A model generated the notes under the pieces. The model searched no databases. It saw only the letters and a program-made list of their open reading frames with translations, and was not told the origin of the DNA. From contig PGXT01000011.1 of assembly GCA_002839285.1 (NCBI GenBank), positions 6,059 to 58,536 of the forward strand: 52,478 nt of DNA, read 5' to 3'. Positions 40,075-43,474 of this stretch are shown here, one piece after another (position 1 is the stretch's first letter; every line of letters begins with the position of its first letter). This stretch comes from Spirochaetae bacterium HGW-Spirochaetae-5 (GTDB lineage Bacteria; Spirochaetota; UBA4802; UBA5550). A program made the translations under genes and the position numbers.

Positions 40075-41433
40075 TCATTCAGAAGTAATTATGCTGGTTA
40101 TGATTATAACGGCAAAAACTGCTGGAAAGATATAAATCAGAAACTTATCGTACATAAAATACTTCATAATGATCGAAGCCGCCCCCCCTGAAATTATTCC
40201 GGCAGTTGCCCCGTAATAATTAATTTTTAATCTCTCTCTGTAAAAACCGAGTACTACGGGGAGAATAATCCCTGAAGTATAAACCGTCAGCGCCAGCAGC
40301 AGCGACTTGATTATCTGATTAACATAAAGTGCTATAACCAGAGAACCGGCCCCGAGAATTACTATCATCAATTTAGTTGCCGCCATCTTAACGGTATCAT
40401 TAAGTCTGTTTTTAAAAAAAAGCGGATTAATAATATCGTTAGTTACAATTATTCCTGAAGTGAGCAGACAAGTATCTGCCGAAGATAAAAATGCGGCCAG
40501 CAGTGCGGCAAAAACAACTCCCTGTAATCCTGAAGGGATAGTATTGACTATCAGATACTGAAAAGAGGATTCGGCCTCGATCCCCGGCGCAATCATTCTG
40601 GCATACAATCCGGCGGCAACAATCAGAATGGCAAAAACAGATATCATTACTGCAGCGGCGATAACCGATTTCTGAGCTGTTTTTTTATCCTTAGCAGATA
40701 GAATCCGCGAATACATATCCGGACCAGCCAGAAAGGATGTGCCTACAAACATAAAAAACATAAAGACTTCGGTAAAACCCAGCTGCCCGTTTACTGGAAA
40801 ATCAAGATGTCCCGCCGGGAGTTGTGACATATTCAGAGGACCGAACTTAATGAAGGCTGAAATCACTGCAGCTGTAATTCCGGTAAAAATCAGCAATGAC
40901 TGGAAAAGATCTGTTTTTATTACCGAATTCTGCCCTCCAAGAACTGTATAAGTAATAAATATTAATGCGCAGAGAATAACAAAAAGTTTATAATGCCCCG
41001 GGAGTACATTACTCATTATTTTACCGGCTGAAATCATCTGTGCAGCAATAATTCCGGTCCAGGCAATAACGATTACCAGCGATGACACTATTTTTACTGA
41101 TGAATGGCCGTATTGTTTCTCCAGAATTTCCGGAAGAGTAAAAACTTCATACTCCCGGACTTTTCCAGCCCAGAAGATACCGAGGATAACAAGCGCTATT
41201 GACCCGCTGAAAAGCCACCAGACAGAGGGGGCTCCCTTTGAATATGCAATACCTGCAAGACCTATAGTTGCAGAACCGCCGATGGCTGTTGCAACCAGCG
41301 ATCCGGTTACAGTAATAACAGATTTAGATCTGCCCCCAACATAATAATTAACTATATCCGGAGATTTACCCCTTTTAAGAATTCCTATGATCAGCATCAT
41401 TAAAAGAAAACCTGTTACAATTCCGAAGTTCAT
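40075..41433 (-). CDS. Sodium:solute symporter (SSS family), candidate biotin/vitamin carrier
   Basis: 452 residues with about 13 hydrophobic segments and SSS-type motifs: YYVGGRSKSV, ATAIGGSATIGLAGIAY, FLSSADTCLLTSGIIVTNDI near the middle. It imports a small anion or solute with Na+ at the inner membrane. It overlaps birA by 4 bp and lies behind a BirA operator, so biotin or a precursor is a reasonable substrate guess; the animal biotin carrier SMVT is also an SSS protein. Sequence alone cannot fix the substrate, and pantothenate or proline-type cargo remains possible. Confidence 0.85.
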   Translation of the reverse strand: MNFGIVTGFLLMMLIIGILKRGKSPDIVNYYVGGRSKSVITVTGSLVATAIGGSATIGLAGIAYSKGAPSVWWLFSGSIALVILGIFWAGKVREYEVFTLPEILEKQYGHSSVKIVSSLVIVIAWTGIIAAQMISAGKIMSNVLPGHYKLFVILCALIFITYTVLGGQNSVIKTDLFQSLLIFTGITAAVISAFIKFGPLNMSQLPAGHLDFPVNGQLGFTEVFMFFMFVGTSFLAGPDMYSRILSAKDKKTAQKSVIAAAVMISVFAILIVAAGLYARMIAPGIEAESSFQYLIVNTIPSGLQGVVFAALLAAFLSSADTCLLTSGIIVTNDIINPLFFKNRLNDTVKMAATKLMIVILGAGSLVIALYVNQIIKSLLLALTVYTSGIILPVVLGFYRERLKINYYGATAGIISGGAASIIMKYFMYDKFLIYIFPAVFAVIIITSIITSE

Positions 41434-42419
41434 ATTAATGTCTCCTGAAGATAATTTATATCACCGGAGTTAACCAGGCATGTTCCGTTATCAGTAGCGA
41501 CTATAAGATTACCATCACCTGTAACATCAGTTACTGTTCCGGTAATTACCTCATTATAATTCGTAACTTTTATCTTCTGGTTTATTATGGCGGATTTATT
41601 TATCCATTTTTCAAGGATAGCCGGGAAATTACCCTGAAGAAAGTCTATATAATTTCTTTCAAAATTAAGCAGTAATAAATTGAGAAAGTCGAGTCTGTTG
41701 ATCTCTCCGCCTGTTATCTCCTGAAGTGAGACAGCCGAATTTTTTATTTCTTCAGGATATTCAGCAGGTGAAGAATTTAGATTTACACCAATCCCTATAA
41801 TTATGAAATCAATATTATCGCAGTCACCCTTCATCTCGGTAAGTATACCTGAAATTTTTTTGCCATTAAAAAGTATGTCGTTGGGCCATTTAATTCTATG
41901 TCCCGGTGCTCCAGCCGAATCGAGAGTTTCGGAAAGTGCTACAGCCGTAACTAAAGTTAATCTTGGAGCTGACAGAGTCGGTATCTGAGGGCGGACAATT
42001 ATTGATAAATACAGATTCTTACCTGAAGGGGATTCCCATTTACGGCCAAGCCTCCCTTTACCCCCGGTCTGGCTTTCGGCAATTACAATGGAACCCTCTG
42101 CTGCACCAGCTGATGCTATTTTAAACGCCTGTATATTCGTGGAATCGGTTTCACTGAATATATGAATTTCCTGTGATCCGAAAAGATCACTTTTGAGAAT
42201 TCTTTTAATCTCAAATTCGGTAAAGGAATCATTATGTGATATCAGTTTGTGGCCATGCCTGCTGGAGGATTCAATGTTGTACCCTGAATCACGAAGAAGA
42301 TTAATATGTTTCCACACCGCAGTTCTGCTTATCCCGAGATTACGGCTTATCTCTTCACCTGACAGCCAGATTCCGGTGTTTTCATAAAGCAGTTCAAGTA
42401 TAATCTGTTTTTTATCCAT
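41430..42419 (-). CDS. birA: Bifunctional biotin-protein ligase / biotin repressor
   Basis: 329 residues. N-terminal helix-turn-helix (about 18-58: LSGEEISRNLGISRTAVWKHI). Catalytic domain with GGKGRLGRKW (119-128), LYLSIIVRPQ and KWPNDILFNGKK (about 174-185). C-terminal SH3-like domain (about 275-325). It makes biotinyl-AMP, charges biotin carrier proteins and, when dimeric, represses transcription. The HTH makes it a class II ligase, agreeing with the operator 25 bp upstream. It overlaps the symporter by 4 bp (ATGA-type). Confidence 0.94.
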   Translation of the reverse strand: MDKKQIILELLYENTGIWLSGEEISRNLGISRTAVWKHINLLRDSGYNIESSSRHGHKLISHNDSFTEFEIKRILKSDLFGSQEIHIFSETDSTNIQAFKIASAGAAEGSIVIAESQTGGKGRLGRKWESPSGKNLYLSIIVRPQIPTLSAPRLTLVTAVALSETLDSAGAPGHRIKWPNDILFNGKKISGILTEMKGDCDNIDFIIIGIGVNLNSSPAEYPEEIKNSAVSLQEITGGEINRLDFLNLLLLNFERNYIDFLQGNFPAILEKWINKSAIINQKIKVTNYNEVITGTVTDVTGDGNLIVATDNGTCLVNSGDINYLQETLI

Positions 42420-42443
42420 AAATACCGGTTAACTGCCGTAGAA

Positions 42444-42483
42444 TTGATTGTCAACTTATTTTTAATACATGGTTGACAATCAA
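42444..42483 (-). promoter_or_regulatory. BirA operator (biotin box) upstream of birA
   Basis: TTGATTGTCAAC (42444-42455) and GTTGACAATCAA (42472-42483) form a perfect 12-bp inverted repeat with a 16-bp spacer. The inner 9-mers TTGTCAACT and GGTTGACAA, spaced by 14, agree with the known BirA consensus TTGTAAACC...GGTTTACAA at 7/9 and 8/9. The minus strand contains TTGACA within it, so a bound BirA would cover the birA promoter. Confidence 0.85.
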
Positions 42484-42504
42484 TAGATGATGATAGTCGA
42501 TATA

Positions 42505-42672: not shown

Positions 42673-42788
42673 CTCATTACCTCCATGTATTTACAAAATA
42701 TTAAATTATCAATATATGTCAACAAATATATAGCAAACATGAGTATGTATTTGTTGTATTTTGCCAGAGATATAATAATCCTTTCATT

Positions 42789-43035
42789 GTCTGAATCACG
42801 GATTCGAAGGATTACACGGATTTCACGGATTAAGATTGTGCTTTGTGGTTGGTGTTTTTTTTTAGAGAAAAAATAATCCGACAATTGTCTGAATCACGGA
42901 TTAAGGGATTACACGGATTTCACGGATTAAAATTGTGGCTCGGAATTGTTTGTGGTTGGTGGAAACATTCCATAATTGTAAATCTGTGTAATCCTTTAAT
43001 CCGTATAATCCGTGATCCAATCTGTGATTCAGACG
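42789..43035. repeat. Direct and inverted repeats left of the GxxExxY gene
   Basis: Two direct copies of a unit of about 50 bp beginning GTCTGAATCACGGATT (R1 from 42789, R2 from 42886) each end TTCACGGATTAA; the spacers share TTTGTGGTTGGTG. At about 42979-43033 an inverted copy (ATCTGTGTAATCC ... GTGATTCAGAC) faces R2, so R2 and R3 can form a long hairpin. The interval 42673-43093 has no gene. Confidence 0.75.
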
Positions 43036-43093
43036 AAAAAAAAGATTGAAAACAAATTTAATCCGTGATCCGGTCTGTAAGCCGGAGGTTCAA

Positions 43094-43474
43094 ATGAAAA
43101 GTGAATTAAAACATAAAAATACAACCGAAAAGATAATCGGCGCATCTTTTGAAGTCCATAAATTTCTTGGTAATGGCTTCCAGGAGGTTATTTATCAGAG
43201 AGCGCTGGCTTATGAAATGAATAAAGCCGGTCTTGTATTTGATAGAGAAATAGAACAGGATATTTTTTATAAAGACCTGGAAAAACCAATAGGTACCCGA
43301 AGAGCCGATTTTGTTGTTGAAGGTAAAATACTCGTTGAGTTAAAAGCAATTTCTCAGCTTGAAGATGTCCATCTTGCCCAGTCATTGAATTATCTTAAAG
43401 CATACAGATTAGATACAGGATTACTTATTAATTTTGGAAGTAAAAGTTTAACATTTAAAAGAGTTGTACTGTGA
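43094..43474 (+). CDS. GxxExxY protein (PD-(D/E)xK nuclease-like)
   Basis: About 126 residues from ATG 43094 with SD CGGAGGT (43083-43089); the frame is open further upstream but without RBS. The naming motif is GFQEVIY. The likely nuclease core is RADFVVEGKILVELKAI, giving D...E-L-K as in PD-(D/E)xK folds, and AQSLNYLKAYRLDTGLLINFG follows as in the family. Members are small, sporadic and often repeat-flanked; activity is unproven as far as I know. Here it sits precisely inside inverted-repeat arrays. Confidence 0.88.
   Translation: MKSELKHKNTTEKIIGASFEVHKFLGNGFQEVIYQRALAYEMNKAGLVFDREIEQDIFYKDLEKPIGTRRADFVVEGKILVELKAISQLEDVHLAQSLNYLKAYRLDTGLLINFGSKSLTFKRVVL

Follow-up and report, generated by a model that had tools for sequence, protein, structure and literature searches.

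What substrate is carried by a symporter of the SSS family whose gene follows birA, the gene for biotin protein ligase and biotin repressor, behind a BirA operator? The question is raised by a locus of Spirochaetae bacterium HGW-Spirochaetae-5, of which a stretch of 52,478 nucleotides from contig PGXT01000011.1 was analysed and is called the window below. Its nearest named relatives are Spirochaetia/Spirochaetes MAGs, which places the window in the Spirochaetota. For the uptake of biotin by bacteria, a survey of human gut genomes published in 2019 recognised no transporters other than BioY and YigM (PMC6593275).

Gene pair, operator and carrier in the window

The two genes lie on the same strand (Table 1), and the start of the symporter gene overlaps the stop of birA by 4 bp. 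The encoded BirA, the sole TIGR00121 match in its genome, harbors HTH_11 at residues 7–57 (5.9e-14), BPL at 91–213 and BPL_C at 279–321. The domain criterion for class II BirA, an N-terminal winged HTH together with the ligase core, is met; class II status by domains is shown, while biotin-dependent repression via the operator is inferred, with no binding or expression data.

Table 1. Positions in the window of the birA–symporter pair, its operator and nearby genes.
Feature	Positions	Strand	Remarks
BirA operator	42443–42484	.	13-bp perfect inverted repeat, 16-bp spacer
birA, class II biotin protein ligase / biotin repressor, 329 aa	41430–42419	-	HTH_11 + BPL_LplA_LipB + BPL_C
SSS (SSF, PF00474) symporter, 452 aa, predicted Na+/biotin importer	40075–41433	-	Profile, tree, model
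Stand-alone ORF, 55 aa	42505–42672	-	Glycyl-radical end of NrdD only
GxxExxY-family (PDDEXK_3) gene adjoining repeated units	42780–43046 and 43046–43474	+	
Small secreted protein, 82 aa	39635–39883	+	CxxCH haem-type motif, no Pfam match

The 13-bp arms of the operator, ATTGATTGTCAAC and GTTGACAATCAAT, are located at 42443–42455 and 42472–42484, 23 bp upstream of the ATG of birA, and on the birA strand the site reads TTGTCAACC-N14-AGTTGACAA. It passes the test for a BirA operator, since it fits the published palindromic consensus TTGTAAACC-N14/15-GGTTTACAA and a published variant is identical: the Geobacter sulfurreducens bioB site, TTGTcAACC-N14-aGTTgACAA, has the same base at each of the 18 specified positions and the same N14 spacing (PMC545781). 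The exact box occurs only once in the whole 4.71-Mb genome, and neither a comparable repeat nor a comparable box was found in 8 shuffles of the window. When one mismatch was allowed, the genome gave 1 further place, against 1 for the reversed control pattern; this further place (G000 C251) is discounted as a real site, being at the chance level set by that control. The position of the operator is kept in the related loci L030/L062 and L031/L064. A sigma-70 scan yielded no convincing promoter of birA that overlaps the box, and an Rfam search of the window revealed no riboswitch.

The symporter matches PF00474 with 148 bits over positions 1–406 of 406, and is thus a full-length SSF protein; membership of the SSS family is met by this match over the profile length and by the fold of SSS carriers. 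Indeed, its AF2 model (pLDDT 94.6) matches the structures of SGLT2, CHT1 and SiaT. Its best equivalog-level match is panF (TIGR02119), with 120 bits against a cut-off of 328; PutP (TIGR02121) gives 94 bits against 515, so that neither equivalog criterion is met, and the score is also far below the ActP cut-off. In maximum-likelihood trees from two samplings, the symporter falls in a clade of its own (74–83 rows, 98–100 SH-aLRT), from which E. coli PutP, PanF, ActP and YidK and the PutP-like spirochaete paralogs are excluded, PutP grouping with other spirochaete paralogs. Some outgroup branches are long and the deep order is unsure, while the exclusion is the same in both trees. A proline, acetate or pantothenate carrier is rejected on these cut-offs and trees. 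The Na2 positions of vSGLT (A62, I65, A361, S364 and S365) align with A48, I51, A314, S317 and S318 of the symporter; among 44 sequences S318 is invariant, and A48, A314 and S317 are nearly so. The Na2-site residues of Na+-coupled members are therefore present, and Na+ dependence itself is inferred from them. Human SMVT (26va) ranks behind CHT1, vSGLT, SGLT1/2 and SiaT among solved SSS carriers, and an orthologous relation to this weak match is rejected.

A preliminary description, made from the sequence alone, had already claimed a 4-bp gene overlap, a class II BirA and a repeat matching the BirA box, all of which held, the last by the consensus fit and the identical published site. Its 12-bp perfect inverted repeat held in a slightly better form, with 13-bp arms, and its distance of 25 bp before birA is corrected to 23 bp. 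Clustering with proline or acetate carriers, which it had named as a refutation, is not seen in the trees, and the parallel that it drew with SMVT is refined to superfamily kinship only, the sequence being closer to CHT1 and vSGLT.

BirA boxes, birA and biotin genes in other genomes

Boxes were scored over 14 specified bases with the known spacings, within about 300 bp of a transcription unit, and regions upstream of other genes in the same loci served as controls (n = 284). Scores of at least 13/14 were obtained for 18 of the 75 symporter transcription units against 0/284 control regions, and perfect scores for 13/75 against 0/284. In archaea of the genus Methanothrix, the symporter has no adjacent birA. 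Eight of these genomes harbor a single exact BirA box each, and without exception it lies immediately upstream of the symporter. This placement is ranked here as the strongest single result linking symporter and operator. The boxes also follow the class of BirA. A box of at least 12/14 is present in 13 of the 14 compared genomes with HTH-bearing BirA, and no box in four genomes whose BirA lacks the HTH domain (G012, G023, G060 and G074; Fisher p about 0.0016). Because the genomes share ancestry, p-values of this kind overstate the independent evidence. In the hadesarchaeal locus L120, an HTH-bearing BirA is encoded nearby and there is no clear box. A second box in G062 stands at a contig end, and the oxidoreductase beside it is the one that precedes birA in L065/L070, so that the locus is probably present twice. 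The box search around the BioY genes of relatives gave no match, and BirA control of BioY there is thus not shown.

Furthermore, birA is the commonest neighbour family of the symporter (80 loci). It adjoins the symporter in Spirochaetota (G010, G014, G016 and G023) and in Desulfobacterota (L065, L068, L070, L078, L079, L082 and L083), is divergent beside it in three Gemmatimonadota, and in a distant spirochaete, G415, is followed by the symporter and then by bioB. At the sequence level, the symporter is thus shown to be linked, across the clade, both to BirA boxes and to birA. Many clade members outside the birA/box lineages, for instance most of those from Desulfobacterota among L094–L139 and those from Dehalococcoidia, have neither an adjacent birA nor a box, and their substrate is therefore less sure. 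Carboxylase genes lie next to the symporter in L033 and in the Gemmatimonadota loci; such closeness to biotin carboxylase genes is not counted as evidence, because E. coli panF also adjoins accBC.

The absence of BioY and BioB is equally shown. BioY was found in none of the 40 genomes with a symporter relative, while the same search was positive in 9/14 control genomes. Of these 40 genomes, which hold the pair or a relative, 3 have BioB; the window genome has none. Among 393 Spirochaetota, BioY is present in 208, BioB in 131 and neither in 89; all 8 of these genomes with close symporter relatives (E < 1e-60) lack both BioY and BioB (p about 5e-6, or about 1e-4 when counted by 6 genera). BioB is present with 6 of the 18 wider spirochaete symporter matches. 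The MAGs are incomplete (G000, 95%).

There are also many near-complete relatives, such as G003, G017, G019, G020, G025 and others, without BioY, BioB or the symporter. In such Spirochaetota, at least one further source or importer of biotin must therefore exist.

Proposed function and rival explanations

Very likely, the symporter is a BirA-repressed, Na+-coupled importer of biotin, a reading in which transport, Na+ dependence and repression are all inferred, without experiments. The operon layout, the operator, the DNA-binding BirA, the SSS fold and the Na2 residues are evident from the sequence, and the evidence for the importer function itself is indirect only, consisting of regulation, adjacency and the absence of BioY and BioB. 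In this view, birA and the symporter would be an operon of two genes under the control of BirA. At low biotin, BirA would be off the operator, and the expressed symporter would import biotin with Na+. At high biotin, BirA dimers loaded with biotinyl-AMP would bind the palindrome and both genes would be turned off. BirA would attach the imported biotin to the carrier domains of biotin-dependent carboxylases. These steps are deduced from what is established on how BirA and SSS carriers work. Biotin itself as substrate is likewise inferred; the simplest assumption is that free biotin is imported, because there is no BioB and uptake of a precursor would be useless.

The preliminary description had proposed an importer of biotin or a precursor under BirA control. 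This is supported as a prediction, its precursor part being unlikely here as BioB is absent. The check that it suggested, to look in relatives for similar symporters preceded by BirA boxes, gave a strongly positive result, and support beyond its checks comes from the lack of BioY and BioB, the adjacency in several phyla and the agreement of boxes with DNA-binding BirA.

Among the rivals, the nearest is a BirA-controlled importer of biotin vitamers, with desthiobiotin, another precursor or biocytin as the main substrate. BirA regulons do include precursor steps, uptake of desthiobiotin would make sense for the birA–SSS–bioB order of G415, and three of the symporter genomes keep BioB. However, BioB, which would be needed to complete a precursor, is missing from 37 of the 40 relative-bearing genomes and from the window genome, and this explanation is considered unlikely. 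Still less probable is a PanF-like symporter of pantothenate, or of another vitamin or carboxylate, whose substrate is linked to biotin enzymes without being biotin. That panF is the best equivalog-level match and neighbours accBC in E. coli, and that carboxylase genes adjoin some of the symporters, speaks for it. Against it stand the wide gap of 120 to 328 bits and the position outside the PanF, PutP and ActP branches, and it leaves unexplained both the sole exact box of a genome being placed at a stand-alone symporter and the absence of BioY and BioB.

Or the box may serve only an autoregulated birA, with the symporter carried along as a passenger. The box in the window does precede birA, the first gene; but in Methanothrix it is found at the symporter while birA is elsewhere, and birA and symporter are paired in several phyla. 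A box serving birA alone is rejected on these Methanothrix sites, and the passenger explanation is all but ruled out.

If a biotin importer, the symporter resembles several known systems in part. Like it, the ECF-type BioY takes up biotin in organisms auxotrophic for this vitamin, and its control often responds to biotin (PMC6593275, PMC4016012); but as a small S-component of the ECF type (PF02632) it differs from the SSS protein, which is found where BioY is absent. YigM of E. coli and Campylobacterales shares secondary, non-ECF uptake of biotin by bacteria (PMC6593275). It is of the EamA/DMT type, a transporter superfamily different from SSS. PanF is likewise a bacterial SSS vitamin symporter, differing in the sub-threshold score and the separate tree branch. 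SMVT (SLC5A6), the animal Na+-dependent multivitamin transporter, is a Na+-driven SSS member that carries biotin, yet it is a weak relative, with 58 bits by either profile. As it matches less well than CHT1 or vSGLT, the shared role in biotin uptake would be a convergence inside the superfamily, independently gained. The BirA regulons of delta-proteobacteria have the same type of operator, but the sites listed there precede biosynthesis genes and no symporter is mentioned (Rodionov et al., 2004; PMC545781).

A bolder reading, probable as one joint claim, is that this distinct SSS clade constitutes a third prokaryotic system of biotin uptake beside BioY and YigM, BirA-controlled in Spirochaetota, Desulfobacterota and Methanothrix, that it reached the same solution as SMVT independently, and that it explains the biotin supply of many anaerobes lacking BioY and BioB, including major aceticlastic methanogens. 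No earlier SSS biotin transporter of prokaryotes was found in the open-access literature searched; mention in a regulon database or subscription paper is not excluded. Many genomes without biotin synthesis also lack BioY, and the clade, if the reading is true, would fill part of this gap for widespread anaerobes. It would also correct annotations that otherwise read proline or pantothenate symporter, predict which methanogens and syntrophs depend on the biotin of their neighbours, and provide small bacterial and archaeal proteins in which Na+-driven transport of biotin, as performed by human SMVT, could be studied.

Other genes around the pair

Genomes of the Syntrophales type repeatedly have a FAD oxidoreductase gene, with weak similarity to geranylgeranyl reductase, ahead of birA or of the symporter (L065 about 1671–2819, L070:1570–2721, and also L066, L069 and L074). 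The gene of the small CxxCH protein (Table 1) is located just downstream of the symporter and convergent with it, in the window as well as in L030, L031 and L062–L064. On the other side of the pair, the repeated units adjoining the GxxExxY-family gene are of the type CTGAATCACGGATT...GGATTACACGGATTTCACGGATTA. The 55-aa ORF lies just upstream of the BirA box, and the same small ORF precedes birA in L062/L063. Its similarity is confined to the very C-terminus, the glycyl-radical end, of the anaerobic ribonucleotide reductase NrdD (PF13597 positions 533–560 of 562), and, by analogy with GrcA/YfiD for pyruvate formate-lyase, it may possibly be a spare radical-domain protein.
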